64,000 bases of DNA from Arthrobacter hankyongi (lineage in GTDB: Bacteria; Actinomycetota; Actinomycetes; Actinomycetales; Micrococcaceae): positions 1 to 64,000 of the forward strand of contig NZ_JAKLTQ010000009.1 in the NCBI RefSeq assembly GCF_022012395.1, in the 5' to 3' direction. Position 1 is the stretch's first letter; the number at the start of each line of letters is the position of its first letter. This document shows, piece after piece, positions 31,854 through 48,610 of the stretch. The position numbers and the translations under genes are program-made. Under the pieces are notes generated by a model. The model searched no databases, was not told the origin of the DNA, and saw nothing but the letters and a program-made list of their open reading frames with translations.

Positions 31854-31888
31854 GTCTCAACCACCGCCCCGTGGCAGACTCCGGTGCC

Positions 31889-32407
31889 ATGGAAATCAGC
31901 ATTCTGCAGGGCGACATCACCGTCCGGCCGGTGGACGCCGTCGTGAATGCCGCAAATTCGCGGCTGCTGGGCGGCGGCGGGGTGGATGGGGCCATCCACG
32001 CCGCGGCCGGGCCGGCGCTGCTGGCCGCCTGCCGGGACCTGCGCCGGACCACGCTGCCCGGCGGCCTGCCGGTGGGGCAGGCCGTGGCCACCGCCGGGTA
32101 CCGGCTCCCGGCCCGGTGGATCATCCACACCGTGGGACCGAACCGCGGCGCCGGGCAGACGGATCCCGGACTGCTGGCCTCGGCGTTCCGGCAGAGCCTG
32201 CTGGTGGCCGAGGACCTCGGGGCCCGGACCGTCGCGTTCCCGGCGATCGGCGCGGGCATTTTCGGCTGGGACGCCGACACCGTGGCGCGCGTGGGGCTGG
32301 GCGAGACGCTGGGGCACGACGGCGGCGTGCAGCTGGTGGAGTTCGTGCTGTTCACGCCGCGGCTGGCCGAGGTGTTCCGGCGGGTCCATGCGGAATTGGC
32401 CCGCTGA
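31889..32407 (+). CDS. Macro-domain ADP-ribose-binding protein
   Basis: A 172-residue single macro domain of the MacroD/YmdB type, which removes acetyl from O-acetyl-ADP-ribose or mono-ADP-ribose from proteins. The signature NAANSRLLGGGGVDGAIHAAAG at about residues 22-43 holds the catalytic Asn and Asp, and FPAIGAGIFGWD is the phosphate-binding loop. The start at 31889 has a weak CAGACT 8 nt upstream. No partner ADP-ribosyltransferase is nearby. A long perfect hairpin follows the gene. Confidence 0.92.
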   Translation: MEISILQGDITVRPVDAVVNAANSRLLGGGGVDGAIHAAAGPALLAACRDLRRTTLPGGLPVGQAVATAGYRLPARWIIHTVGPNRGAGQTDPGLLASAFRQSLLVAEDLGARTVAFPAIGAGIFGWDADTVARVGLGETLGHDGGVQLVEFVLFTPRLAEVFRRVHAELAR

Positions 32408-32425
32408 ACCGCCGGCCTGCACATT

Positions 32426-32479
32426 TTGGGCGGGATAGATGCTGTTTTCACCCGTGAAAACAGCATCTATCCCGCCCAA
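32426..32479. repeat. Perfect 26-bp inverted repeat (hairpin family, copy 1)
   Basis: Left arm 32426-32451 and right arm 32454-32479 are exact reverse complements, separated by CC. The outer arm TTGGGCGGGATAG / CTATCCCGCCCAA is shared with the repeat at 43676-43739; the inner 13 bp (ATGCTGTTTTCAC) is not. Located between the convergent macro-domain and RluA-type genes. No T-run follows on either strand. Confidence 0.93.
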
Positions 32480-32513
32480 GTTTCAGGGTGGGGAGGGGAG
32501 GGGGGTGGGGCGG

Positions 32514-33443
32514 TTACGGTGCGGTGTGGGCAAGGCCTGCGGCGGCCCATTCGGAGAGTTCCAGCTGGCTGCGGTACTCGACCGGCTTACCGGAGAGAGG
32601 GTCGGTGAAGCGGATGCCGCGGGCCAGCAGCTGCAGCGGGCGGCCGAAGTCGTCCGGGGCCTGGTCCAGCAGCACCGGGTAGAACGGATCGTGCAGGATC
32701 CCGATCCCCAGCGACGCCATGTGCACGCGCAGCTGGTGGGTCTTGCCGGTATGCGGCTGCAGCCGGTACCGGCCTAGCCCGCCGCGGGAGTCCAGCAGCT
32801 CGATCCGGGTCTCGGTGTTCGGTTCCCCGGCCACGGTTTCGGCCAGCAGGTAGGTGCGGGACTTGACCATCCGGTTGCGCACCAGCAGCGGGTATTCGTG
32901 CTCCGGGTCCACCGGTGCCACGGCCTCGTAGTCCTTCTGCACCCGGCGCTTCTCGAACAGAACCTGGTACCGGCCCCGGGTCGCCGGATTGGTGGAGAAG
33001 AGCAGCACGCCGGCGGTGAGCCGGTCCAGCCGGTGCATCGGGATCAGGTCCGGGATATCCAGCTGGACGCGCAGCCGCACCAGGGCGGATTCGCTGATGT
33101 AGGTGCCGCCCGGCGTCGTGGGCAGGAAGTGCGGCTTGTCCACCACCAGGATGTTCTCGTCCTGGTGCAGGATGTTGATTTCCACCGGCAGCCGCTGCTC
33201 GGCCGGCAGCGTCCGGTAGTACCAGATGAAGGTGTGCTCGGACAGCGCGGTGCCGCGGTGCAGCCTGACCCCGCCCTGGCCGACGATCTCCCCGCGGTCG
33301 AAGCGCTCGCGGATGCCGTCCGGATCCACATGGCCCCAGCGGTGCAGCATGTAGTCCAGGGCAGTGGCCCACGGCCCGGCGGCGGGCAGGCGCAGCCGGG
33401 TGGCATTGACGCCGTCGCGCACGGGCAGGGGGGATTTCATCAC
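32514..33443 (-). CDS. RluA-family pseudouridine synthase
   Basis: A 309-residue RNA pseudouridine synthase. The catalytic motif HRLDRLTAGVLLFS at about 146-159 holds the active-site Asp, and LQPHTGKTHQLRVHMASLG is the second family block. The N-terminal 90 residues form an S4-like or family-specific extension rather than a clear S4 domain. The RNA target (rRNA or tRNA position) cannot be assigned. The GTG start at 33443 is supported by TACCCT 6 nt upstream. Confidence 0.9.
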   Translation of the reverse strand: MMKSPLPVRDGVNATRLRLPAAGPWATALDYMLHRWGHVDPDGIRERFDRGEIVGQGGVRLHRGTALSEHTFIWYYRTLPAEQRLPVEINILHQDENILVVDKPHFLPTTPGGTYISESALVRLRVQLDIPDLIPMHRLDRLTAGVLLFSTNPATRGRYQVLFEKRRVQKDYEAVAPVDPEHEYPLLVRNRMVKSRTYLLAETVAGEPNTETRIELLDSRGGLGRYRLQPHTGKTHQLRVHMASLGIGILHDPFYPVLLDQAPDDFGRPLQLLARGIRFTDPLSGKPVEYRSQLELSEWAAAGLAHTAP

Positions 33444-33449
33444 CCATCA

Positions 33450-33455
33450 AGGGTA
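33450..33455 (-). promoter_or_regulatory. Leaderless -10 hexamer (TACCCT) of RluA-family gene
   Basis: TACCCT on the minus strand lies 6 nt before the GTG at 33443. Confidence 0.5.
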
Positions 33456-33472
33456 CCCGGCCGTCCCGGCGG

Positions 33473-34228
33473 TCAGGCCCTGGCCGTGACCGACCAGACC
33501 GTCCGGGGCCGCTCCAGCCGCACCCCGTCGACAACCAGGTCCACCCGCTCGTTGAAGAAGCACAGCAGGTCGCGGATCTTGGGGATCTCCGGGATCGGCT
33601 CCGGGTAGCTCCAGGCCGCATCCCGCACGAAGACGTCCCCGGCCCGCAGCGACCAGTAACGGGCCAGCCCCTTGTAGGGACAGGCCGTGACCGTGTCGCT
33701 GGCTTCGAGCAGCTCGGTGCGCACGTCCTCGAACGGCAGGTAGTAGCGGACCGGCAGCCCGGTCTCGAAGAGCAGCAGCGGCCGGACACTGTCCGCGACC
33801 TGCTGCCCGCCGGCGAACACCTGGACCCGGCGGGAGCTGCGCAGGGTGTCCACGCGCTTGTGCGGATCCCGCGCATGCACCTGCACCCGCTCGTCCTCCT
33901 CGTACCACTCCAGCTGCTGCCAGGAAAAGGTGACATGGCCGGCCAGTGCGGCCAGCGGGCCGGTCGGAGCGGGATGCGACCACGCCGCGCCGCGGGCCTG
34001 CCTGCTGCCCGCCTGGACGGTCCAGGTCCGCCCGCCCTGGCGGCCGGCGGCCTCGTCGACGAGGGCCCCGGGGAGGACATCCTCCAGCGGCAGGAAGTAG
34101 GTGGGCAGTCCGTGGGCGTCGTACCGGACCAGCAGCAGCGCCCGGGTGCTGTCGGCAACCAGCCGGCCGTCCAGCCGCACCCGGATGCGCCGCGGCGTCG
34201 GCTCGACGAAGGGAACGGAGGTCTCCAT
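33473..34228 (-). CDS. Tandem DUF427 protein
   Basis: A 251-residue protein holding two copies of the DUF427 domain: roughly residues 15-120 and 125-245. Each begins with RRIRVRLDGRLVADSTRALLL-like or RRVQVFAGGQQVADSVRPLLL-like sequence, and the second contains the diagnostic TACPYKGLARYW and AAWSYPEP. The fold is small and all-beta; function is unknown. The start is set by TAGAGT 7 nt before the ATG. Confidence 0.88.
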   Translation of the reverse strand: METSVPFVEPTPRRIRVRLDGRLVADSTRALLLVRYDAHGLPTYFLPLEDVLPGALVDEAAGRQGGRTWTVQAGSRQARGAAWSHPAPTGPLAALAGHVTFSWQQLEWYEEDERVQVHARDPHKRVDTLRSSRRVQVFAGGQQVADSVRPLLLFETGLPVRYYLPFEDVRTELLEASDTVTACPYKGLARYWSLRAGDVFVRDAAWSYPEPIPEIPKIRDLLCFFNERVDLVVDGVRLERPRTVWSVTARA

Positions 34229-34235
34229 GGCGGAC

Positions 34236-34241
34236 ACTCTA
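34236..34241 (-). promoter_or_regulatory. Leaderless -10 hexamer (TAGAGT) of DUF427 gene
   Basis: TAGAGT on the minus strand lies 7 nt before the ATG at 34228. Confidence 0.6.
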
Positions 34242-34409
34242 CTCCGGCTCACCCCTTCCGGGCCGCGGGTGCAGCCCGGGGGCCGGCAGGGTGCTATGGC
34301 GCAGTTGCGAGCATCTCGGCGATCATCACCGCGGGACATTCGCAGCCGGTCCGGCGGGACATCCCTGGCGGGGGCCGGACGATCGATCCGCTGCTGGCCA
34401 ATCCCTGGA

Positions 34410-34424
34410 GCAACCAATGGTTGC
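34410..34424. promoter_or_regulatory. ArsR operator, copy 1
   Basis: GCAACCAATGGTTGC is a perfect 6-3-6 dyad. A second copy with the same arms lies 45 bp downstream. Its right arm overlaps the proposed -35 element TTGCAC. Confidence 0.7.
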
Positions 34425-34449
34425 ACATAAAGGAGGAATGCCCTACAGT
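34421..34449 (+). promoter_or_regulatory. Promoter of SRPBCC-ArsR operon
   Basis: TTGCAC at 34421-34426 and TACAGT at 34444-34449 are spaced 17 bp and are flanked by the two ArsR-type dyads. A start of transcription near 34456 would place the downstream dyad at the beginning of the mRNA. Confidence 0.5.
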
Positions 34450-34454
34450 CATAT

Positions 34455-34469
34455 GCAACCAAAGGTTGC
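34455..34469. promoter_or_regulatory. ArsR operator, copy 2
   Basis: GCAACCAAAGGTTGC has the same arms as the dyad at 34410-34424. It lies directly downstream of the proposed -10 element, where binding would block transcription start. Confidence 0.7.
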
Positions 34470-34488
34470 GAGAGGGCGGGAGAGTGGA

Positions 34489-34953
34489 ATGGAATACGGC
34501 AGCATCGAGCGGACGATCCACATTGAAGCCGCGCCCGAGGTGGTCTACGAGGTCATCAGCAAGCCCGAACACCTGCGGCAGTGGTGGCCGGACGAAGCAG
34601 AGTTCGAGCCGGTGCCCGGCGCCGCCGGGGTCATCTCGTTCGGCGACCGGACGGCACCGGAGGCGCACGTCGTACCGCTTACGGTGGTGGAGGCCGACCC
34701 GCCGCGGCGGTTCTCCTTCCGGTGGGTGTACGACGAAGGTGAGGCCGCGACCTCGGCCAACTCGCTGCTGGTGACCTTCGAGCTGGTCCCGTCGGGCGCA
34801 GGCACGCTGCTGCGCTTCACCGAGGCGGGGTTCCGGGAGAAGGGCTGGGAGGCGGCCGTGCTCGAGGAGCAGTACCGCGAGCACGTCGCCGGCTGGGACT
34901 ACTTCCTGCCTCGCCTCGTCACGTATGTCGCCGGGCTGGTGTCGACGCCATGA
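34489..34953 (+). CDS. SRPBCC/AHSA1-family protein
   Basis: A 154-residue single START-like domain: TIHIEAAPEVVYEVISKPEHLRQWW at the N-terminus and a C-terminal helix GWDYFLPRLVTYV, typical of activator-of-Hsp90-like proteins paired with ArsR regulators. The ligand is unknown. The ATG at 34489 has GGGAG at proper spacing. Another in-frame ATG at 34438 follows AAAGGAGGA too closely and lies upstream of the likely transcription start. First gene of a three-gene operon. Confidence 0.88.
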   Translation: MEYGSIERTIHIEAAPEVVYEVISKPEHLRQWWPDEAEFEPVPGAAGVISFGDRTAPEAHVVPLTVVEADPPRRFSFRWVYDEGEAATSANSLLVTFELVPSGAGTLLRFTEAGFREKGWEAAVLEEQYREHVAGWDYFLPRLVTYVAGLVSTP

Positions 34954-35288
34954 GCGTCACCATCGACGACGAGCTCTGGTCGGCGGTGGGGGACCCGACC
35001 CGGCGGCGGATGCTCGATCTGCTGTTGGCCGACAGCGGCGGCACGGCGACCACGCTGAGTGAGCAGCTGCCGGTCACACGGCAGGCGGTCGCCAAGCACC
35101 TCGGCGTGCTCGACCGGGTCGGTCTGGTCCACGCCACGCCGTCCGGACGCGAGCGTCTCTACGAGGTGGACGAGGCCCAGTTCGCCCGCGCGGTCGCACA
35201 ACTGTCGTCGGTCGGGGCCGCCTGGGACGCCCGGCTGCACCGCATCAAGCGGATCGCCGAAGAAATCCAGCGCAGTCAGGAAGGCTGA
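34950..35288 (+). CDS. ArsR/SdpR-type transcriptional repressor
   Basis: A 112-residue winged helix-turn-helix regulator of the ArsR family, SdpR-like. The recognition region is TTLSEQLPVTRQAVAKHLGVLDRVGLVHA (about 33-61), and the wing is GRERLYEVD. It has no cysteine metal site, so it is probably not a metal sensor; SRPBCC partners commonly supply the signal in this family. The ATG overlaps the stop of the preceding gene (ATGA). The two GCAACC-N3-GGTTGC dyads upstream of the operon are its likely targets. Confidence 0.9.
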   Translation: MSVTIDDELWSAVGDPTRRRMLDLLLADSGGTATTLSEQLPVTRQAVAKHLGVLDRVGLVHATPSGRERLYEVDEAQFARAVAQLSSVGAAWDARLHRIKRIAEEIQRSQEG

Positions 35289-35392
35289 CGCCCCGCAAAC
35301 GAATGCCGTCACATCCGCGGCGGCGCTGATGAACCGCGCCCGAACGCGGGCGCCTGCACAAGAAACCGGCACAAGAAGAAAGAGGTATCGAG

Positions 35393-35833
35393 ATGGTGGA
35401 CATCCTGCATCGGATCGGAGTCACGTCGTCTCCCGACGACGTCTACGCGGCCTTGACCACGGTCGATGGGCTGGCGGGCTGGTGGACGGAGGACGCGGAG
35501 GGCGACGGCAATGCCGGGGGAACACTTCGGTTCCGCTTCGGGCCCGGCGGGTTCGATATGAAGGTCCTGGAGGTTCGGCCCGCCGAGCTCGTGCTCTGGG
35601 AGGTCGTCGACGGTCCCGAGGAATGGATCGGCACGCAGGTCCGCTTCGAGCTCAAGCAGGAGGACGGCTTCACGATCGTGTTGTTCCGGCACGAAGGCTG
35701 GAAGGATCCGGTGGAATTCATGTACCACTGCAGCACCAAGTGGGCGACCTTCCTGATGAGCCTCAAGAAGCTGCTCGAAACCGGCAAGGGCGAGCCCGCG
35801 CCGCATGACGTCAAGATCAGCAACTGGCACTAG
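35393..35833 (+). CDS. Second SRPBCC/AHSA1-family protein
   Basis: A 146-residue START-like protein (DILHRIGVTSSPDDVYAALTTVDGLAGWW at the N-terminus), distinct from the first SRPBCC protein of the operon. The C-terminal half is FMYHCSTKWATFLMSLKKLLETGKG. AGAGG precedes the ATG. It lies 104 bp after arsR and is probably cotranscribed. The ligand is unknown. Confidence 0.85.
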   Translation: MVDILHRIGVTSSPDDVYAALTTVDGLAGWWTEDAEGDGNAGGTLRFRFGPGGFDMKVLEVRPAELVLWEVVDGPEEWIGTQVRFELKQEDGFTIVLFRHEGWKDPVEFMYHCSTKWATFLMSLKKLLETGKGEPAPHDVKISNWH

Positions 35834-35860
35834 ACCTTGAAGCGGATTTCAGGTTGCGGG

Positions 35861-35923
35861 CCCGGGCGGGCTCCGCGCGTCGGACCTTCCCACCACTCGC
35901 TTCGCTCGCGGCGGGCCCCTCGG
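35861..35923 (-). repeat. Dispersed palindromic repeat, copy C
   Basis: On the minus strand it reads CCGAGGG, then CCCGCCGCGAGCGAAGCGAG, then a diverged second module. It lies between convergent genes; TAG of the adjacent minus-strand stop codon begins just past the CCCTCGG end. Confidence 0.75.
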
Positions 35924-35925
35924 TC

Positions 35926-37917
35926 CTAGCTGCAGCCGGTGATCCGGTACAGCCTCGCGTCCGGGCCCTGCTGGTCCACCAGCTCGAAACCCGCGGACCG
36001 GGTCAGGTGGTCCAGGCCGGCCACCTGGGCCGGCTTGTCCCAGCTCACTGACTGGTCGCCGAAGTCCAGGACGTACTGCACCTTGCGCTCGCGCACGATC
36101 GGGCAGATGGCCGGGTCCGTCTTCATCTCGTCCAGTTTCGCCACCAGCAGCTGGGCATCCGTCATCGGGGCGGTCTCGCCCGAGGGCAGCAGGGTCCGGA
36201 TCCCGGTGTACGCGTAGGACAAGGCGGCGCCGGTGAGCGGATCCCCGATGGTCATCGCGCCGGCGGGCACCCGTTCCGGCAGCCGCTCGATCAGGGCCAG
36301 TTCGTCCGATGACAGCAGCGGCGAGGTCGGGGTGAACCGGTACTTGGCGGCCGCGACCTCCACCCCGCGGGTAACGGCAAAGAACGGCACCACCGCCAGG
36401 CTCACCGCCACCAACAGCGCCGTGGCCGCCGGCCGCAGCCAGGCCTGCGGCGTCCGATCCCGCTTGACCAGCCAGGCGCGGAAGAAGGACCGGGCCGTGC
36501 TGGCCAGCGCGGTGCCGCCGATGGCTGCGGTGAGGAGCCCGGCCGCGGGCAGCAGGCCGGCAATCCGGAAGAAATCGTTGTAGAAGACGCCGGTGACCCA
36601 CCAGCGCAGTTCCGGGGCTTCCTTCCAGTTGCCCACCACAAAGAATGCCGCGGCGATCAGGTAGATGCCCAGCACCCAGCGGTTCCGCCGGGTGTTCAGC
36701 ACAACGGCGGCCCCCACCACGGTGAGCACCGTGGGCAGGACGGCCATCGGCCGGTCGATCGCCCCGTGGGTGAAGACCTCCACCAGCGAGCGCAGCACCT
36801 CGCCGAGGTTGTCCCAGTTCCGGGTGGCGCTGCGGCCCGGGCGGATGAGCACCCAGGCCACCACGACGGCGGCCAGGTAACCGGCCGCCAGCAGGCCGGC
36901 CGTGCGGCGGCGCCGTGCCGCCTCGGGGCCGGACGCCAGCCGCCGGGCGCGGCGCGCGGCGGCGAGGACCATTGGGACGGACAGGGCCAGCAGGGCCATG
37001 ACGGCGGCGGGATGGGACAGCGCCATCCCCGGCAGCACCGCGGCCAACGCCAGCGCGGCCGCCTCCGTGGACAGGGCCGCCGGAAGGCCCAGGCGCAGCA
37101 GTTGGATGACCAGGCCCAGGGCCACCGGCAGGATCGCCATGGAGAGCAGGAACGGGTAGACCACGCCGAATTCCAGCAGCAGGTAGGGGAAGGTGCTGTA
37201 GGCGGTGGCCAGCACCCCGGCCACCAGCAGCGACAGGGTCCGTTCGCCGGTGACCCGGCTGGCCAGGAACAGGCAGCCCAGCGGCCACAGGCAGGTGATG
37301 ACGACCAGGTTCGTCGCGTTGATCGCGGCCGGGATGGAAACACCGGAGGCGAGCTGGACCAGCGAGACCAGATCGTGCCAGCCGGCCGGATAGAAGGCGG
37401 TGCCGCCGGCGGTGCCCAGATAGCCCAGGGTCAGGGACGAGGCCTTGCCGGTGTCGGCAATGTAGCGCAGCGCGTTGAGGTGGAAGATGTTGTCGTGGGA
37501 CTGGGCGATGTTGCCCGGCGAGCCGAAGACGCCCAGCAGCACCACGCCCAGGAATACCGCCGGCACCGCCCACGCCAGCGCGATGGACCGCCAGGGCGCC
37601 GGCGGCGGAGCGGCCCGCGGATCGTGATGCACCCGGTAGCGCCAGCGGTGCAGCAGCAGCCGCCGGGCCAGTGCCAGCACGGCGGCGATGGCGGCGGTGA
37701 CCGCCAGCAGCAGCGGCCAGGACCAGGACCATCCGGTGAACCCGCCCAGTTCGGCGGCGATCACGATGGCCGTGACGCCCAGCGGCCCGGCCACGGCCAG
37801 CAGGGTCAGCCGGCGCAGGCCCAGGATGGCGCCCCAGATGAGGCCGGGACCGTAGAGGAAGAGGACCGCCAGCACCAGGGCAGGAATGGTCGACACCCAG
37901 TCCAGCACCCAGCTCAT
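35926..37917 (-). CDS. Large polytopic membrane protein (DUF6541-like)
   Basis: A 663-residue membrane protein with about 13 hydrophobic helices spread over residues 8-520, followed by a soluble C-terminal domain of about 130 residues. HDNIFHLNALRYIADTGKASSL at about 148-169 and FYPAGWHDLVSL follow the pattern of the first extracellular loop of GT-C-type glycosyltransferases and DUF6541 proteins. It may transfer sugars from lipid carriers for cell-envelope glycans, but no enzymatic proof is visible. GGGGGGA precedes the ATG. Confidence 0.8.
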   Translation of the reverse strand: MSWVLDWVSTIPALVLAVLFLYGPGLIWGAILGLRRLTLLAVAGPLGVTAIVIAAELGGFTGWSWSWPLLLAVTAAIAAVLALARRLLLHRWRYRVHHDPRAAPPPAPWRSIALAWAVPAVFLGVVLLGVFGSPGNIAQSHDNIFHLNALRYIADTGKASSLTLGYLGTAGGTAFYPAGWHDLVSLVQLASGVSIPAAINATNLVVITCLWPLGCLFLASRVTGERTLSLLVAGVLATAYSTFPYLLLEFGVVYPFLLSMAILPVALGLVIQLLRLGLPAALSTEAAALALAAVLPGMALSHPAAVMALLALSVPMVLAAARRARRLASGPEAARRRRTAGLLAAGYLAAVVVAWVLIRPGRSATRNWDNLGEVLRSLVEVFTHGAIDRPMAVLPTVLTVVGAAVVLNTRRNRWVLGIYLIAAAFFVVGNWKEAPELRWWVTGVFYNDFFRIAGLLPAAGLLTAAIGGTALASTARSFFRAWLVKRDRTPQAWLRPAATALLVAVSLAVVPFFAVTRGVEVAAAKYRFTPTSPLLSSDELALIERLPERVPAGAMTIGDPLTGAALSYAYTGIRTLLPSGETAPMTDAQLLVAKLDEMKTDPAICPIVRERKVQYVLDFGDQSVSWDKPAQVAGLDHLTRSAGFELVDQQGPDARLYRITGCS

Positions 37918-37945
37918 TGTCCCCCCTGAGGAATATCAGAGACCA

Positions 37946-38740
37946 TCATACGGTGGGGCCGGGCTGGCAGTGCGGGCAGTAGTACAGATCCCGCTGGTCC
38001 AGGTCGGTATTGCCCAGCAGGGTGTGCACCACCGGTCCGCCGCAGCGCCGGCAGGCCTGCCGGGCCCGCCCGTAGACCCAGTAGCCCCCGCCGCGGGGCA
38101 CCGGGCCGCCGGTGGTGCTGCGCGCGCCGCGGTCCTTGTTCGCCTCCAGCAGCCTCTTCGACAGGCCGACCAGCCACGGCAGGTCCGGCACCTGGCCCAC
38201 CGGGACGAGTGGATGCACCCCGGCCAGGAAACAGACCTCGCAGCGGTAGATGTTGCCGATGCCGGCCAGGTTGCGCTGGTCCAGCAGCGCCAGCCCCACC
38301 GGCCGGGCCGGATCCAGCCGGAGCCGGCGCAGCGCTTCGTCCTCGTCCCAGTCCGGGCCCAGCAGGTCCGGCCCAAGGTGTCCGACGACGTCATCCTCCT
38401 TCTCCCGCGGGACCACGTCCAGCAGCCCCAGCTGGAAGCCGACCGCTGTCGCCGCGGCGTTCTCCAGCACCACGCGGGCCTGGAAGCCGGGTTTGCGCCA
38501 GCGCTCGCCGGGCCGGTAGACCTGCCAGCTGCCCTCCATCTTCAGGTGCGAGTGGATGGTCAGGTCCCCGGTGCGGATCAGCAGGTGCTTGCCGCGGGAG
38601 ACCGCCTCCTCCACGGTCCGGCCGGACAGGTCCAGGGTGGCGTAGCGGGGCACCCGGAAGTCGGTGCGCAGCAGTTGGCTGCCGGCCAGGGCCGCGTGCA
38701 GCCGCCGGGCGGTGCGCCAGACGGTATCGCCCTCAGGCAC
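37946..38740 (-). CDS. Fpg/Nei-family DNA glycosylase (Nei2-like)
   Basis: A 264-residue base-excision repair enzyme. The mature N-terminus PEGDTVWRTARRL supplies the catalytic proline and glutamate; GDTV is typical of the actinobacterial Nei1/Nei2 branch that removes oxidised pyrimidines. The helix-two-turn-helix is near NLAGIGNIYRCEVCF, and the C-terminal zinc finger is CRRCGG to CPHC. GTG start at 38740, overlapping the end of lhr by 8 bp, so both DNA-repair genes share an mRNA. Fpg-like 8-oxoguanine activity is the less likely alternative. Confidence 0.9.
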   Translation of the reverse strand: MPEGDTVWRTARRLHAALAGSQLLRTDFRVPRYATLDLSGRTVEEAVSRGKHLLIRTGDLTIHSHLKMEGSWQVYRPGERWRKPGFQARVVLENAAATAVGFQLGLLDVVPREKEDDVVGHLGPDLLGPDWDEDEALRRLRLDPARPVGLALLDQRNLAGIGNIYRCEVCFLAGVHPLVPVGQVPDLPWLVGLSKRLLEANKDRGARSTTGGPVPRGGGYWVYGRARQACRRCGGPVVHTLLGNTDLDQRDLYYCPHCQPGPTV

Positions 38741-41700
38741 GGAACCGCAGCCCGCGCGGAGTGCCGTAGAAGCCGGCTCCGGCCAGCGCCCGGGCCAGCT
38801 CGGTGTCCAGCACCGGGGCGCCGTTGACCTTCTCCACCGCCATCTTGTCCGCGGCGCCGCGCCGGATCACCGCGACCAGCGCCTGCGCACACCGGGCCAG
38901 CACGTCGGGGTCCTCGGTGAAGGTCAGCAGCGTCTTGCCGCCGCGCTCCACGTACAGGGCCAGCTCCCCGTCCACCAGGATGACCAGGGCGCCGGCCTTG
39001 CGCCCGGGCCGGTGCCCGCCGTCGACGGCGGGCCAGGCCAGCGCGGCGCCGTACGGGTTGGCCGGGTCCGTGGCGGCCAGCGCGACGGCGGCCGGCGGGT
39101 TGGCCGCCTCCGGCTGCAGCTGGGGATCCTTGACGAACGAGCGCAGCCGGTCCACGGTGGCGGGCACGGCGAACTGGGCGGCGCCCAGATGCTCGATGAA
39201 GTAGCCTCGCCGGCAGCGGCCCATCTCTTCCAGCCGTGCCAGCACCTTGTACATCAGGGCGAAGCCGCCGGGCACGCCCTCGGCCCCGACCGCCCCGCGG
39301 GTCACCACGCCGTAGCGGTCCAGCAGCAGCTCCGCGGCGGCGTGGGCGCGGACGGTCGCGTCGGCCTCCGCCGCCGGCAGCAGGGACCAGCGCCCGCCGG
39401 CCAGCGGCGGGGCGCCGCGCGCGGGTGCCGCGCCGCCGCCGTCGTCGTGCCGCAGCCCCGCGCCGGAGGCAGCGCCGAGCCCGCGCAGCCGGCCTGCCCG
39501 GCGGAACCCGGCGGTCCGGGCCCGCGGGGTGGCCGGACGCTGCCGGTGCGCCGTGGTGCCGCCGGCGAGCAAGGCCCGGACCGGGGCGAAGGTGTCGTTG
39601 CCGATCCGACCGGCCCAGACCAGTTCCCAGAGCGCGGTGACCACCTCGGCATCAGGCGCCGGTGACCCGGCGGCGGCCAGCGCGTCGGCCAGTTGGCGGA
39701 AGAAATAGGCGCCGCCGGGCTGTCCCGTCGAGCCGCCGAGCGCGTTGAGCAGCTCGTACTGCAGCACGCTGGGCTCGAAGTCCGGCTGCGGGTTCAGTGT
39801 CAGGTCCGCCGTGTCGGCCAGGTGCAGGCTGATCCAGCCGTCGTTGCCCGGCAGCGAGCCGGCACCGGACCAGAGGACCTCGCCGGTGGCCATCAGCTCG
39901 TCCAGCATGGCCGGGCTGTAGTTGTCCACCCGCGAGGCCAGCACCAGCGGTTCCCAGGCCGAGGCCGGGATCGGCACGCCGGAGAGCTGGTCCACCACGG
40001 TGGCGATGCCGTCCAGCCCGCGCAGCCCGGCCCCGACATTCTGCCAGGCGGGCAGGAAGCGCCCGTAGGCCGCCGGCTCGACCGGCTCGACTTCCTTGCG
40101 CAGCGCGGCCAGCGACCGCCGCCGGATCCGGCGCAGCACCTCGACGTCGCACCACTCGTTCCCACCCGTCCCGGCTCCGGCGGGCCGGAATTCGCCTTCG
40201 ACCACGCGGCCGTCGCGCTGCAGCCGCTCCAGTGCGACGGCGACGACGGCGGGGCCCAGGCCCAGCCGTGCGGCGCACTCGGCGGCGGTGAAGGGCCCGT
40301 GGGTGCGGGCATAGCGGCCGACCAGGTCCCCAAGCGGGTCCGCGACCGGTTCGATGAAGGCCAGCGGCACACCCACCGGCAGCGGGACGCCGAGGGCATC
40401 GCGCAGCCGGGCGGCGTCCTCCACCGCGGCCCAGCGCGGGCTGCCGGCGATGTGGACCTGCAGTGCGCGGTTGGCGTGGACAAGTTCGGCCAACAGCGGC
40501 TCGACGTCGGCCTCGGTGACGGGACCGGCCTCCGGTGCCTGCACCCGCTCGGCGACCTCCACCGTCGTCAGCGGCCCGAGCAGGCGCAGCAGGTCCGCGA
40601 TGCCCTCGATCCCGCGCACTCTGCGGTCCTCGGTGAGCCGCTGCAGCTCGCGCTCGGTCTGCGCGATGACGCCCTCGTCCAGCAGTTCGCGCAGCTCGGC
40701 GCGGCCGAGCAGGTCGTTCAGCAGCGCCGGGTCCAGCGACAGCGCCGCCGCCCGGCGCTCGGCCAGCGGGGAATCGCCCTCGTAGAGGAAGGAGGCGACA
40801 TAGCCGAAGAGCAGGGAGCGGGCGAAGGGCGAGGGCTGCGGCGTCGTCGTTTCCACCATCCGCAGCTCGCGGCGCTCGATCCGCCCGGCAATGTCCTTCA
40901 GCGCCGGCAGGTCGTAGACATCCTGCAGGCACTCGCGCACGGTTTCGAGCACGATCGGGAAGGTGGGGTACTTGCGTGCGACGTCCAGTAGCTGGGCCGA
41001 GCGCTGGCGCTGCTGCCACAGCGGGGTGCGTTTGGCCGGGTTCTGCCGCGGCAGCAGCAGCGCACGGGCGGCGCATTCGCGGAAGCGCGAGGCGAACAGC
41101 GCCGAGCCGCCCACCTCGGCGGTGACGATCGTGTCCAGTTCCTCCGGGTCGAACAGGAACAAATCCGCCCCGGGCGGCTCGTCCTCCATCATCGGCACCC
41201 GCAGCACGATGCCGTCGTCGGCCGCCATCGCCGAGCCGTCCAGCCCGTAGCGCTGCTGCAGCCGGGCGCCCACGGCCAGCGCCCAGGGGGCATGCACGGG
41301 CAGGCCGAACGGGCTGTGCAGCACCACGCGCCAGTCGCCGAGTTCGTCGTGGAAACGTTCGACGACGAGGGCCCGGTCGCTGGGGATCACGTCGGTGGCC
41401 TGGCGCTGCTCGGCCAGGTAGGCCAGCAGGTTCCCCGCGGCCCAGTCGTCCAGCCCGCTGCCCGCCAGCCGGTCCCGGGCCGTGTCCTCGGCCAGGCCGG
41501 AGACTTCCCGGACGAAGCTGCCCAGCGCCCGGCCCAGTTCCACCGGCCGGCCCAGCGAGTCCCCCTTCCAGAAGGGCAGCTTGCCGGGCTGGCCGAAGGC
41601 GGGGGAGACCAGCACCCGGTCATGGGTGATGTCCTCGATCCGCCAGCTGGTGGCGCCGAGCGCGAAGACGTCGCCGACCCGGGACTCGTAGACCATCTCC

Positions 41701-43655
41701 TCGTCCAGCTCGCCGACCCGGCGGCCGCCTTTGTTTTTCGCATCGTCGGAACCGACCAGGTAGACGCCGAAGAGCCCGCGGTCCGGGATGGTGCCGCCGG
41801 AGGTGACGGCCAGCCGCTGGGCACCGGGCCGGCCGGTCAGGGTGCCGGCGATCCGGTCCCAGACGATCCGCGGGCGCAGTTCGGCGAACTCGTCCGAGGG
41901 GTAGCGTCCGGCCAGCAGGTCCAGGGTGGCCTCGAAGGCCGAGCGCGGCAGCGTGGCGAAGGGCGCCGAGCGGCGGACGACGTCGAACCATTCCTCCACG
42001 TCGATGCTGCCCAGCGCGGTGGCGGCCACGGTCTGCTGGGCCAGGATGTCCAGCGGGTTGGCCGGGATGGACAGCGGCTCGATCCGCCCGGAGAGCATCC
42101 GTTCCACGGTGACGGCGGTGTTGACCAGGTCCTGGCGGTGCTTGGGGAACAGCACGCCGCGGGAGACCTCGCCCACCTGGTGCCCGGCCCGGCCCACCCG
42201 CTGCAGCCCGCTGGCCACCGACTGCGGGGATTCGACCTGGACCACCAGGTCCACGGCGCCCATGTCGATGCCCAGCTCCAGGCTGGAGGTGGCCACGACG
42301 CAGCGCAGCCGCCCGGTCTTCAGGTCGTCCTCGATCAGGGCCCGCTGGTCCTTGCTGACCGAGCCATGGTGGGCGCGGGCCAGCACGGGCTCGGCTCCTG
42401 CGCTGGAGCCGGCCTGGGCCATGATCTGGGCCGGTGGTCTGGCGGCCTTTGGTATGGCCGCCTTGGGGACGCCGGATCGGCCCTCGGCCGGCGGCAACGA
42501 ACGTTCCTCGACTCCCAAAGCTCGCAAGCTCGCTTCGGGTCCCTCGTCGAGTCTCTTAGCGGCCGCGGACGGCCTTGCATTATTAAAGCCGCCTTCCCCG
42601 AGGTCCGGTCCGGTTTGCCAGGCGTCACCTGCCGCCGCCTGCCGTTCGGCCCAGATTTCGTTGAAGCGGGCGGTCAGCCGTTCGGCGAGCCGGCGGGAGT
42701 TGGCAAAGACGATGGTGGAGCGGTTCTCCGCGATCAGGTCCACGATCCGCTCCTCCACATGGGGCCAGATCGACGCCGGCTGCGGGTTCGGATCCAGTTC
42801 GTCCGCCGGCGGCGGGACCAGGGCGGTCATATCCTCCACCGGCACGGCCACGGTCAGGTCCCAGCTCTTGGCCGCCGGCGGCGCCACGATTTCCACCGGC
42901 GAGTTCCCGCCGAGGAACCGGGCCACGGTGTCCAGCGGTTCCACCGTGGCGGACAGCCCGATGCGCTGGGCGGGCCGGACCAGCAGCGCGTCCAGACGCT
43001 CCAGCGAGACGGCCAGGTGCGCCCCGCGCTTGGTCCCGGCCACGGCATGGACCTCGTCCAGGATCACCGTGTCCACGGCCGCCAAGGTCTCGCGCGCCTT
43101 GGAGGTCAGCATCAGGAACAGTGACTCCGGCGTCGTAATCAGGATGTCCGGCGGGTGGCTGAGCAGCTTCCGCCGCTCGGCGGCGGGGGTGTCCCCGGAG
43201 CGCACGCCCACGGTGACCGGCGGCGCGGGCAGTCCGAGGCGCTTGGCGGTCTGGGTGATGCCGATCAGCGGGGCGCGCAGGTTGCGTTCAACGTCGACCC
43301 CGAGGGCCTTCAGCGGGGAAATATAGAGCACCCGGGTCCCGCGCGATCCCTGCTTCGGCCGGGCCGGCAGTTCTTCGATGGGCAGTTCCGGGGCCTCGCC
43401 GGCGGCCTGCAGGAAGCCGTCCAGCGCCCACAGGAAGGCCGCCAGCGTCTTGCCGGAGCCGGTGGGGGCGACCACCAGGGCATGGGAGCCGTGCGAGATC
43501 GCCGTCCAGGCGCCGGCCTGGGCGGGGGTGGGCGCGCTGAAGGCACCGGCGAACCACTGCCGGGTGGCCGGGGAAAACCTCTCCAGGACGGCCAGGTCTG
43601 CTGCCTGCTGCGCGTTTGTTCCGATGTATCCGAGACTATCGCCCGCTGCCGACAA
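38733..43655 (-). CDS. lhr: Lhr-type ATP-dependent helicase
   Basis: A protein of about 1640 residues, full-length Lhr-Extended: a superfamily 2 helicase core followed by winged-helix, Lhr-core and C-terminal domains. Walker A APTGSGKTLAAFL near residue 65, DEVH in VILDEVHAVAGTKRG, AHHGSVSKDQ, and SSLELGIDMGAVDLVVQV and QRVGRAGHQVG for motifs V and VI. It unwinds DNA 3' to 5' and acts in DNA-damage tolerance. Two low-complexity insertions stand out: one at 42440-42610 (between the RecA lobes), holding a repeat-derived palindrome, and one near 39430-39560. The start is uncertain; the TTG at 43655 is a guess, since no ATG or GTG with a ribosome site was found. Overlaps nei. Confidence 0.9.
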   Translation of the reverse strand: MSAAGDSLGYIGTNAQQAADLAVLERFSPATRQWFAGAFSAPTPAQAGAWTAISHGSHALVVAPTGSGKTLAAFLWALDGFLQAAGEAPELPIEELPARPKQGSRGTRVLYISPLKALGVDVERNLRAPLIGITQTAKRLGLPAPPVTVGVRSGDTPAAERRKLLSHPPDILITTPESLFLMLTSKARETLAAVDTVILDEVHAVAGTKRGAHLAVSLERLDALLVRPAQRIGLSATVEPLDTVARFLGGNSPVEIVAPPAAKSWDLTVAVPVEDMTALVPPPADELDPNPQPASIWPHVEERIVDLIAENRSTIVFANSRRLAERLTARFNEIWAERQAAAGDAWQTGPDLGEGGFNNARPSAAAKRLDEGPEASLRALGVEERSLPPAEGRSGVPKAAIPKAARPPAQIMAQAGSSAGAEPVLARAHHGSVSKDQRALIEDDLKTGRLRCVVATSSLELGIDMGAVDLVVQVESPQSVASGLQRVGRAGHQVGEVSRGVLFPKHRQDLVNTAVTVERMLSGRIEPLSIPANPLDILAQQTVAATALGSIDVEEWFDVVRRSAPFATLPRSAFEATLDLLAGRYPSDEFAELRPRIVWDRIAGTLTGRPGAQRLAVTSGGTIPDRGLFGVYLVGSDDAKNKGGRRVGELDEEMVYESRVGDVFALGATSWRIEDITHDRVLVSPAFGQPGKLPFWKGDSLGRPVELGRALGSFVREVSGLAEDTARDRLAGSGLDDWAAGNLLAYLAEQRQATDVIPSDRALVVERFHDELGDWRVVLHSPFGLPVHAPWALAVGARLQQRYGLDGSAMAADDGIVLRVPMMEDEPPGADLFLFDPEELDTIVTAEVGGSALFASRFRECAARALLLPRQNPAKRTPLWQQRQRSAQLLDVARKYPTFPIVLETVRECLQDVYDLPALKDIAGRIERRELRMVETTTPQPSPFARSLLFGYVASFLYEGDSPLAERRAAALSLDPALLNDLLGRAELRELLDEGVIAQTERELQRLTEDRRVRGIEGIADLLRLLGPLTTVEVAERVQAPEAGPVTEADVEPLLAELVHANRALQVHIAGSPRWAAVEDAARLRDALGVPLPVGVPLAFIEPVADPLGDLVGRYARTHGPFTAAECAARLGLGPAVVAVALERLQRDGRVVEGEFRPAGAGTGGNEWCDVEVLRRIRRRSLAALRKEVEPVEPAAYGRFLPAWQNVGAGLRGLDGIATVVDQLSGVPIPASAWEPLVLASRVDNYSPAMLDELMATGEVLWSGAGSLPGNDGWISLHLADTADLTLNPQPDFEPSVLQYELLNALGGSTGQPGGAYFFRQLADALAAAGSPAPDAEVVTALWELVWAGRIGNDTFAPVRALLAGGTTAHRQRPATPRARTAGFRRAGRLRGLGAASGAGLRHDDGGGAAPARGAPPLAGGRWSLLPAAEADATVRAHAAAELLLDRYGVVTRGAVGAEGVPGGFALMYKVLARLEEMGRCRRGYFIEHLGAAQFAVPATVDRLRSFVKDPQLQPEAANPPAAVALAATDPANPYGAALAWPAVDGGHRPGRKAGALVILVDGELALYVERGGKTLLTFTEDPDVLARCAQALVAVIRRGAADKMAVEKVNGAPVLDTELARALAGAGFYGTPRGLRFRA
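42507..42551 (-). repeat. Repeat-derived palindrome inside lhr
   Basis: Bounded by CTCGAC and GTCGAG. The minus strand reads CGAGGGACCC followed by GCGAGC elements as in module 1 of the dispersed repeat. It is translated in frame as part of the linker between the Lhr RecA lobes (residues like RLDEGPEASLRALGVEERS). Confidence 0.6.
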
Positions 43656-43675
43656 GCCGCACCGGCACCTCTTCC

Positions 43676-43739
43676 CAAACTTGGGCGGGATAGTTGTGGT
43701 TATCCCGCTGGATAACCACAACTATCCCGCCCAAGTTTG
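43676..43739. repeat. Perfect 30-bp inverted repeat (hairpin family, copy 2)
   Basis: Left arm 43676-43705 and right arm 43710-43739 are exact reverse complements with loop CGCT. The outer arms contain TTGGGCGGGATAG / CTATCCCGCCCAAGTTT as in the repeat at 32426-32479. The inner 12 bp (TTGTGGTTATCC) is unrelated. It lies between the DUF4232 lipoprotein gene and the start of lhr, both on the minus strand. Confidence 0.93.
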
Positions 43740-43761
43740 TGATGGGAGGGAAAACCGGGCC

Positions 43762-44412
43762 CTACGGGGCCTGGAAGGTGCCCACGGTCATCAGGACGAT
43801 CTTCTCGTTCGCGCAGCCGAGCGTGGACTGCGGCGCCACCAGCGAGGCCGTGTCGTTCGGCGGGTAGACCCGGACGCCGGCGACCTCGGTCGGCTGGCAC
43901 TCCGTGCCGTAGTTCTGCGCATTGGTCTGCTGCACCTCGGCGACGGCGCTGCCGCCGGGGGCCACCGTCACCGCCGTCACCGCAGCGTCCGGATTGCGGT
44001 CGGCCGGTGCGCCTACCTGCTTGCCGGCGGCATCCACGTAGGACAGCCCCGGGTAACCGCGCAGCGTGCACGCGGTGGTGCCGGTGTTCGCCAGGACCAC
44101 ATTGCGGTAGACGCTGCCGGCAGCCCCGCCGCCGGGCTGGGTGACGATGCTGGCCTTGAGTTGGGCGGCTTTGCAGTCGCCGCCGGTACCCATGGCTCCG
44201 CCGGTGGCCGGGGCCGATGCGGTGGCGGCCGGGGTCGACGCAGCGGTGGTCGGCGTGCCTGAGGCGGTGGCCGCCGCGGAGGCGGACGCGGGGCTGCTGG
44301 CCGCATTGGAGCCCGTGGGGACCAGGCTCTGGGGCTGCCCGCAGCCGGTCAGGCAGAGGACCGCTCCCGCCGACGCTGCTGCCATTGCCGTCCACCAACG
44401 GTTGCGTTTCAT
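43762..44412 (-). CDS. DUF4232 lipoprotein
   Basis: A 216-residue secreted lipoprotein. Signal peptide with lipobox LTGC (Cys24), then a Ser/Ala/Thr-rich linker of about 50 residues and a DUF4232 domain (about 78-216) starting DCKAAQLKAS, with NVVLANTGTTACTLRGYPGLSYVD as the family core. Four cysteines probably form two disulfides. It has no known enzymatic role. GGAGGAATC precedes the ATG. Confidence 0.88.
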   Translation of the reverse strand: MKRNRWWTAMAAASAGAVLCLTGCGQPQSLVPTGSNAASSPASASAAATASGTPTTAASTPAATASAPATGGAMGTGGDCKAAQLKASIVTQPGGGAAGSVYRNVVLANTGTTACTLRGYPGLSYVDAAGKQVGAPADRNPDAAVTAVTVAPGGSAVAEVQQTNAQNYGTECQPTEVAGVRVYPPNDTASLVAPQSTLGCANEKIVLMTVGTFQAP

Positions 44413-48442: not shown

Positions 48443-48474
48443 GGGCCCGGCGGCAAATGCGGACCGGACAAAGC

Positions 48475-48516
48475 GGAAGGGCCGGTTTCCTGCGATGGCA
48501 GGAAACCGGCCCTTCC
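48475..48516. terminator. Bidirectional 19-bp hairpin
   Basis: GGAAGGGCCGGTTTCCTGC pairs perfectly with its complement around loop GATG, between the channel gene (+) and tRNA-Ser (-). There is GCTTTG on the tRNA side but no long T-run. Confidence 0.75.
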
Positions 48517-48520
48517 GGGT

Positions 48521-48610
48521 TGGCGGTGACGGAGGGATTTGAACCCTCGTTGGCTTTTACACCAAACATCATTTCGAGTGATGCACCTTCGGCCGCTCGG
48601 ACACGTCACC
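48521..48610 (-). tRNA. tRNA-Ser (CGA)
   Basis: A 90-nt class II tRNA with encoded CCA. The acceptor arms GGTGACG and CGTCACC pair; the anticodon loop CTCGAAA gives anticodon CGA in stem CATCA/TGATG; it has a long variable arm, and the T arm is GAGGGTTCAAATCCCTC. It reads UCG codons. The hairpin at 48475-48516 lies just past its 3' end. Confidence 0.95.

Follow-up and report, generated by a model that had tools for sequence, protein, structure and literature searches.

The window analysed here (the whole 64,000-nucleotide stretch of Arthrobacter hankyongi DNA) contains two long, perfect hairpins in intergenic DNA, which belong to one family of 62-bp palindromic repeats. The features at and around them are:

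31871..32407, + strand: macro-domain gene (Pfam PF01661), ending 14 bp before copy 1
32422..32483, no strand assigned: copy 1 of the 62-bp palindromic repeat, with perfect arms at 32426–32451 and 32454–32479
32514..33443, − strand: RNA pseudouridine synthase gene (Pfam PF00849), whose stop faces copy 1 from 30 bp away
38733..43619, − strand: Lhr-type helicase gene (Pfam Lhr domains), downstream of copy 2 and in the same direction as the DUF4232 gene; start approximate
43677..43738, no strand assigned: copy 2 of the repeat; its perfect pairing reaches 43676 and 43739
43762..44412, − strand: DUF4232 gene (Pfam PF14016), ending 23 bp from copy 2; upstream member of the tandem pair

Relatives of the Lhr stretch align from about residue 10, and the best match of the protein is at 76% identity in an Arthrobacter sp. 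As the first-pass annotation of this DNA had stated, both hairpins are exact inverted repeats. Copy 1 has 26-bp arms around a 2-nt loop and copy 2 has 30-bp arms (43676–43705 and 43710–43739) around a 4-nt loop, and the outer arms that the annotation quoted are common to both. It had also noted the lack of a T-run, and a terminator consensus scan of 32300–44000 indeed returned four terminator-like sites, none of them at either hairpin. The predicted RNA folds of the two copies, on both strands, lie far below those of shuffled sequences (z −8.5, −9.3, −12.2 and −11.9). Another long hairpin of unrelated sequence is found in the window at 48469–48522, with 25-bp arms that are 92% complementary and a 4-nt loop.

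When the genome, 5.19 Mb in 67 contigs, was searched with the 13-bp outer arms, a check that the annotation had proposed, further copies came to light, bringing the total to 25. The 13-nt outer arm occurs at 50 sites, 25 forward and 25 reverse, and all 50 fall into inverted pairs with a start-to-start distance of 41 nt; the reversed control gave no match. Allowing one mismatch added three unpaired sites, against five matches of the control. Because 25 of 25 pairs have the one spacing and the reversed control has none, chance is excluded for the outer arm. Aligned, each copy is 62 bp long and gap-free. The unit consists of NAACTTGGGCGGGATAG, inner arms that are variable in part and then CTATCCCGCCCAAGTTN; the alignment opens with N-AAC-TTGGGCGGGATAG, runs on through an inner arm close to ATGCTGTTWTC into a centre of six bases and closes with the mirror image of the first half, so that the unit ends are NAAC and GTTN. 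Variation is very unevenly distributed over the 25 copies: none of the 650 cells at outer positions 5–17 and 46–58 is changed, compared with 86 of 550 at inner positions 18–28 and 35–45, 68 of 150 in the centre and 36 of 200 at the tips (1–4 and 59–62). Within the inner part, T19-G20 and its mirror never vary. At the outermost pair, 1/62, the two bases are complementary in 15 of the 25 copies, where 9.0 are expected, and pairs beyond it are near expectation; despite this excess, the base at pair 1/62 differs between copies that are otherwise identical.

Read on either strand, the flanking DNA is C-rich before the element and G-rich after it, an asymmetry that fades within about 40 bp. The pooled 20-nt upstream flank is 56% C and 14% G; next to 11 further long hairpins in the same genome the figures are 36% C and 31% G. 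These flanks could be a target preference, an extended stem or a feature for Rho loading. No proper Rfam match was obtained at the 11 loci scanned, three of which carry elements of this genome (L048, L072 and L170); over the elements only microRNA models matched, far below their gathering scores.

Pairing of the inner arms is less regular than the two window copies suggest. Inner pairs 18–28 are all matched in seven copies, both window copies among them, and the remaining 18 have one to six mispairs. The unrelated and perfectly complementary inner stems described by the annotation are thus real in the window but atypical, since only 7 of 25 copies pair fully and the inner arms follow one consensus, ATGCTGTTWTC. 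The annotation had staked its proposal on further copies and on inner arms that pair; the copies exist, and pairing is incomplete in 18 of them, so that the outcome it had named as refuting its proposal has come about in part. Changes that affect both arms of a pair amount to 27 cells, compared with 14.8 ± 2.6 after shuffling, a value reached by 0 of 500 shuffles. The number of pairs with such changes, six, is not unusual (5.1 shuffled; reached in 173 of 500). The inner arms of this genome are therefore coupled only in part: they co-vary beyond shuffles, as had been suspected, but full pairing is not always kept.

Outside A. hankyongi, the exact outer-arm pattern is absent from all 58 relatives and from a genome-contig database from which its own genome may have been omitted. 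A covariance model built from the 25 copies reached further. At E ≤ 0.01 it matched at least two of ten genomes of the genus (A. hankyongi and, with a weaker relative of the element, the congener G001), and at E ≤ 1e-4 at least 75 of 395 Micrococcaceae genomes in at least 12 of 32 genera, its own included; among the matches listed for the family, most are 62 nt long. The candidates scored for each genome were capped at 150 within the genus and at 13 within the family, a limit that weaker copies escape, so the numbers of genomes are minimum values. Pairing even by itself earns a score in a hairpin model; the kinship between the A. hankyongi elements and those of a second genus, g9, is drawn from their equal length and from the g9 arm, CAACTRGGTMGCAGYAGATGTCGTTTTGAG, which agrees with the A. 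hankyongi arm at about 23 of 28 positions (counted by eye). With no more than one mismatch allowed, six g9 genomes have 7 to 39 half-sites per strand, of which some look like chance matches by eye, and no control matches; many g9 elements contain GTAG inside the arm, not at the end of the element. On named replicons, g9-type elements occur at 28 places in four records of Arthrobacter and Paenarthrobacter. The carriers include Arthrobacter sp. StoSoilB13 and Paenarthrobacter ureafaciens pADNL1, in which the element lies between aceA and aceB, about 10 bp behind aceA.

In the congener G001, none of six corresponding regions holds an element of the A. hankyongi family. Three of them carry some other hairpin downstream of the same gene (one of 20 bp, one of 16 bp followed by TTT, and a weak one of 12 bp with one mismatch), and the other three have no hairpin with arms of at least 9–10 bp. 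The correspondences for C12, C25 and C6:106135 are less certain, since one flank aligned for C12 and C25 and both flanks only at a distance for C6:106135.

Unrelated hairpins with 18–24 bp arms occur elsewhere in the A. hankyongi genome, 11 of them within 400 kb of contig C1, and also in G001. A second, more degenerate palindromic family of the A. hankyongi genome (G000), ATCGACTTGACGGATAAYGCCCTTTTC and its mirror, has 20 half-sites at up to three mismatches, around locus position 1501 of loci L165, L167 and L169–L186. The long terminator-like hairpins of L199 and L212 (G000) and of L243 and L251 (G001) have the common ends ACGACGGCGG...CCGCCGTCGT. Near-identical palindromes, GGACGGGAGGCGCGGTGCCAGCTGGCACCGCGCCTCCCGTCC, stand beside two lhr loci of Curtobacterium (L104 82–129 and L106 2110–2151), which suggests another repeat family.

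Coupling of the arms is also seen in g9, the best-represented genus, down to a single orthologous site. Among 51 g9 elements, 17 of the 28 pairs show two-sided changes, in 131 cells compared with 43.2 ± 8.1 after shuffling. Kinship alone can lift sequences above shuffles without any structure, and slid controls preserve kinship; against these controls the covariation score is 0.275, compared with at most 0.085. One orthologous g9 site was sought in 198 g9 genomes, and a clear element is present in 16 of the 30 loci obtained, which overlap in part with the set of 51; the count excludes L328, whose copy is damaged, and 13 loci that hold remnants, a different hairpin or nothing at all. At these 16 loci, two-sided changes affect 10 of 28 pairs (30 cells compared with 10.6 ± 3.2 shuffled; covariation score 0.201, slid controls at most 0.070), and no mispaired intermediate is seen in the switches of pairs 18/45 and 21/42. 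Such paired change in place fits either compensatory selection or template switching. The annotation had argued that the inner arms must be copied from one another or held by selection for a stem. The coupling that it presupposed is real in both data sets (27 compared with 14.8 cells in A. hankyongi, 131 compared with 43.2 in g9), but the stems are not freely swapped perfect modules. Around the orthologous site, two of the 30 loci (L320 and L334) have repeats of AGTTGAAGACC at the gene end to the right of the element, L338 retains only CAACTAGTTG as a collapsed or empty site, and a ZMP/ZTP riboswitch above its gathering score lies nearby at L260 2460–2545.

In the direction of the transcript there is no excess of G-U over A-C mispairs, with 18 against 14 at 33 tandem sites; convergent sites have 21 against 16, and a further 98 mispairs of other kinds occur over these 66 convergent and tandem sites, classed by the uncorrected gene caller. 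Since A-C mispairs are about as frequent as G-U, selection on the RNA strand is not shown.

Genes around the copies were called with a simple GC-frame caller and six sites were corrected by reading of open reading frames and by Pfam, the correction at the C10 site resting on a translation read by eye. All 25 copies are intergenic once one gene call was corrected. After correction, nine lie between convergent genes, 14 between tandem and two between divergent genes, as raw counts; before correction the caller had given nine convergent, 12 tandem and two divergent sites, with one copy inside an open reading frame and one undecided. Both called stop codons are within 50 bp of the element at all nine convergent sites, one of these genes being a 62-codon open reading frame without other support. 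The divergent copies (L055 13361–13422 and L060 2826–2887, on contigs C1 and C6) separate the pairs TP_methylase/PMT and paaA-like/S9 peptidase, and promoter effects are conceivable there. In g9, the uncorrected caller places 24 elements in convergent spacers, 21 in tandem and 3 in divergent ones, with 1 inside an open reading frame and 2 undecided (n = 51), and a called stop codon lies inside the element in 12 of the 51.

One copy on contig C20 and one on C56, oppositely oriented and in unrelated flanks, agree at every position of a 54-bp stretch. Two C1 copies separated by 1.1 kb have in common an inner variant that is rare and mispaired, and they differ from each other at two positions. The fixed length of 62 bp, the 26 invariant outer columns and the 54-bp identity in unrelated flanks together indicate the copying of a unit. 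Direct repeats of 2–9 bp at offsets 0–7 gave no consistent target-site duplication, with at most three of the 25 copies at any of the 64 combinations; the largest excess, for 4-bp repeats at offset 3, was two of the 25 copies where 0.16 were expected. Insertion into existing hairpins was rejected, as flanks pair no better with their own partner at five of six widths (p 0.42 to 0.94), the exception being width 12 with a p of 0.017 uncorrected for six tests. A linked RAYT gene, which the annotation had suggested looking for, was not found: the Y1 model PF01797 matched neither the A. hankyongi genome nor any of 13 others, 12 of them g9 carriers, and it did match in 5 of 14 control genomes. Between close copies no transposase was apparent in translations read by eye; the genes there appear to encode an MFS transporter, a ROK-type regulator and GAPDH, and a 310-aa protein has no Pfam match at E 1e-5. 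As to a parent element, every one of the 50 outer arms in this draft genome sits in a 62-bp pair. A phage origin was rejected since no phage matched the consensus or a g9 element, four viral-contig matches to a one-arm pattern being non-palindromic, and so was a plasmid origin, plasmid matches to copy 1 and its flanks being at chance level.

Taken together, we find it fairly probable that these elements are a REP-like, lineage-specific palindromic repeat of 62 bp that has spread as a unit, and whose hairpin, read from either side, provides a terminator or a stable 3′ end. What we observe directly speaks for this: 25 copies of one fixed length and pair spacing, constant outer arms, identical or nearly identical units in different flanks, a bias toward gene ends with most copies behind stop codons, strong folds of the window copies, arms coupled through paired changes, and similar elements of 62 nt in other Micrococcaceae. 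The other hairpins behind the same gene in three of six G001 regions and the structured transcript ends without U in Streptomyces clavuligerus (PMC8269248) also speak for it. Some enzyme or process would have spread the copies by reading the arms, whose invariant blocks, interrupted by variable positions, look like protein recognition. Transcribed, the hairpin may act as a terminator that needs no U-tract and works in both directions, or alternatively it could be the stable 3′ end that remains after Rho-dependent termination and trimming, and complementarity of the arms would be kept by selection on the hairpin, perhaps also by template switching between the arms during replication. Counted against this reading are the missing G-U excess, the three of six G001 regions with no hairpin, the failure to find a mobiliser, or an empty site with clear boundaries for the A. 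hankyongi family, and, for the terminator role, the two copies between divergent genes, where no terminator is expected.

Those two copies and the missing G-U bias leave room for a role at the level of DNA. The elements might be sites for a dimeric chromosome-organising or regulatory protein, with gene ends simply the places that tolerate such sites and the RNA hairpin incidental, an explanation that we consider unlikely though worth serious attention: invariant outer blocks and T19-G20, interrupted by variable positions, have the appearance of protein recognition, and mispairs are symmetric between the strands. Sitting poorly with it are the nine convergent sites with both called stops within 50 bp, the hairpins of other sequence at three of six corresponding G001 regions and the g9 arms, whose sequence changes in pairs, which is unexpected for a single fixed protein site. 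Location behind stop codons, and the unrelated hairpins with 18–24 bp arms in A. hankyongi and G001, would suit ordinary terminators made alike by convergence or local conversion, with no mobile unit involved; the fixed length, 26 outer columns that never vary among the 25 copies and a 54-bp identity between two copies in unrelated flanks make this improbable. Slightly more improbable still, in our judgement, are classical RAYT-mobilised REP elements whose transposase was lost or missed. Dispersed extragenic palindromes mainly in convergent and tandem spacers are what REPs look like (in the accessible part of PMC3733652), but this family has no terminal GTAG or CGTC tag, and the Y1 transposase is absent from A. 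hankyongi and 13 other genomes while 5 of 14 control genomes match.

The favoured reading, of a repeat spread as a unit and acting at transcript ends, has a bolder extension that we regard as possible but doubtful, in which 62-bp palindromes mobile throughout the Micrococcaceae would be moved by a non-Y1, arm-reading enzyme, template switching would rewrite both arms, and arm types would be replaced at fixed gene-end positions. The results add a palindromic repeat family, widespread in the Micrococcaceae, that in the genomes checked comes without the transposase known to move REPs elsewhere. Orthologous copies with joint arm changes make compensatory selection and template switching directly testable against each other for long hairpins. 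If the 3′-end role is true, a spreading repeat supplies part of the transcript ends of these bacteria, and a mobiliser outside the known ones, if it exists, would be new.

Among known systems, MITEs are short non-autonomous repeats with inverted ends. The present family shares these traits but differs from MITEs in having no consistent target-site duplication and no parent element that we could find. It departs from canonical intrinsic terminators in that its hairpins have no U-tract, and it has the strong fold near stop codons of hairpins at U-tract-less or bidirectional 3′ ends, with two of the 25 copies, the divergent ones, excepted. In Streptomyces clavuligerus, according to the available part of PMC8269248, 353 structured transcript ends have no U-tract and 182 are U-rich, the U-rich ones reduce read-through more, and bidirectional transcript ends are described. 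The U-tract-less ends there (I-shaped or Rho-dependent and trimmed) resemble ours in the strong hairpin behind stop codons and the absence of a T-run, but as reported there they involve no dispersed sequence family of fixed length. Maintenance of hairpins by template switching, as outlined in the accessible text of PMC8794818, likewise involves changes in two arms that keep the stem matched; it is a mutation mechanism and not an element family, and our data are consistent with it.

There is also a likeness to REPs, which the accessible part of PMC3733652 describes as dispersed extragenic palindromes, mainly in convergent and tandem spacers and with several families per genome, the CGTC REPs having no dedicated transposase. 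Dispersal, extragenic position, palindromic form, convergent or tandem placement and more than one family in a genome all agree with that description. Our repeat differs in its length (62 bp compared with 20–40 bp), in being near-symmetric and in the absence of a GTAG or CGTC end tag, and from GTAG REPs also in that the RAYT (Y1 tyrosine transposase) is absent from 14 of 14 tested genomes. As far as its accessible main text goes, PMC3733652 makes no mention of Arthrobacter, Actinobacteria or Streptomyces; the accessible text of the stem-loop survey PMC2267715 does not name Arthrobacter, and RepRanger (PMC12306157), in the part available, has a table row for Arthrobacter livingstonensis without describing this repeat. 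The annotation had called the hairpins an undescribed repeat class. To the extent that no description was found in the open-licence papers searched and no proper Rfam match at 11 loci, this was justified, but as a category it is too strong, because REP or terminator-type palindromic repeats are placed and dispersed in a similar way. The 62-bp family, itself without a description in the open-licence literature searched, is a palindromic repeat of a known general type.
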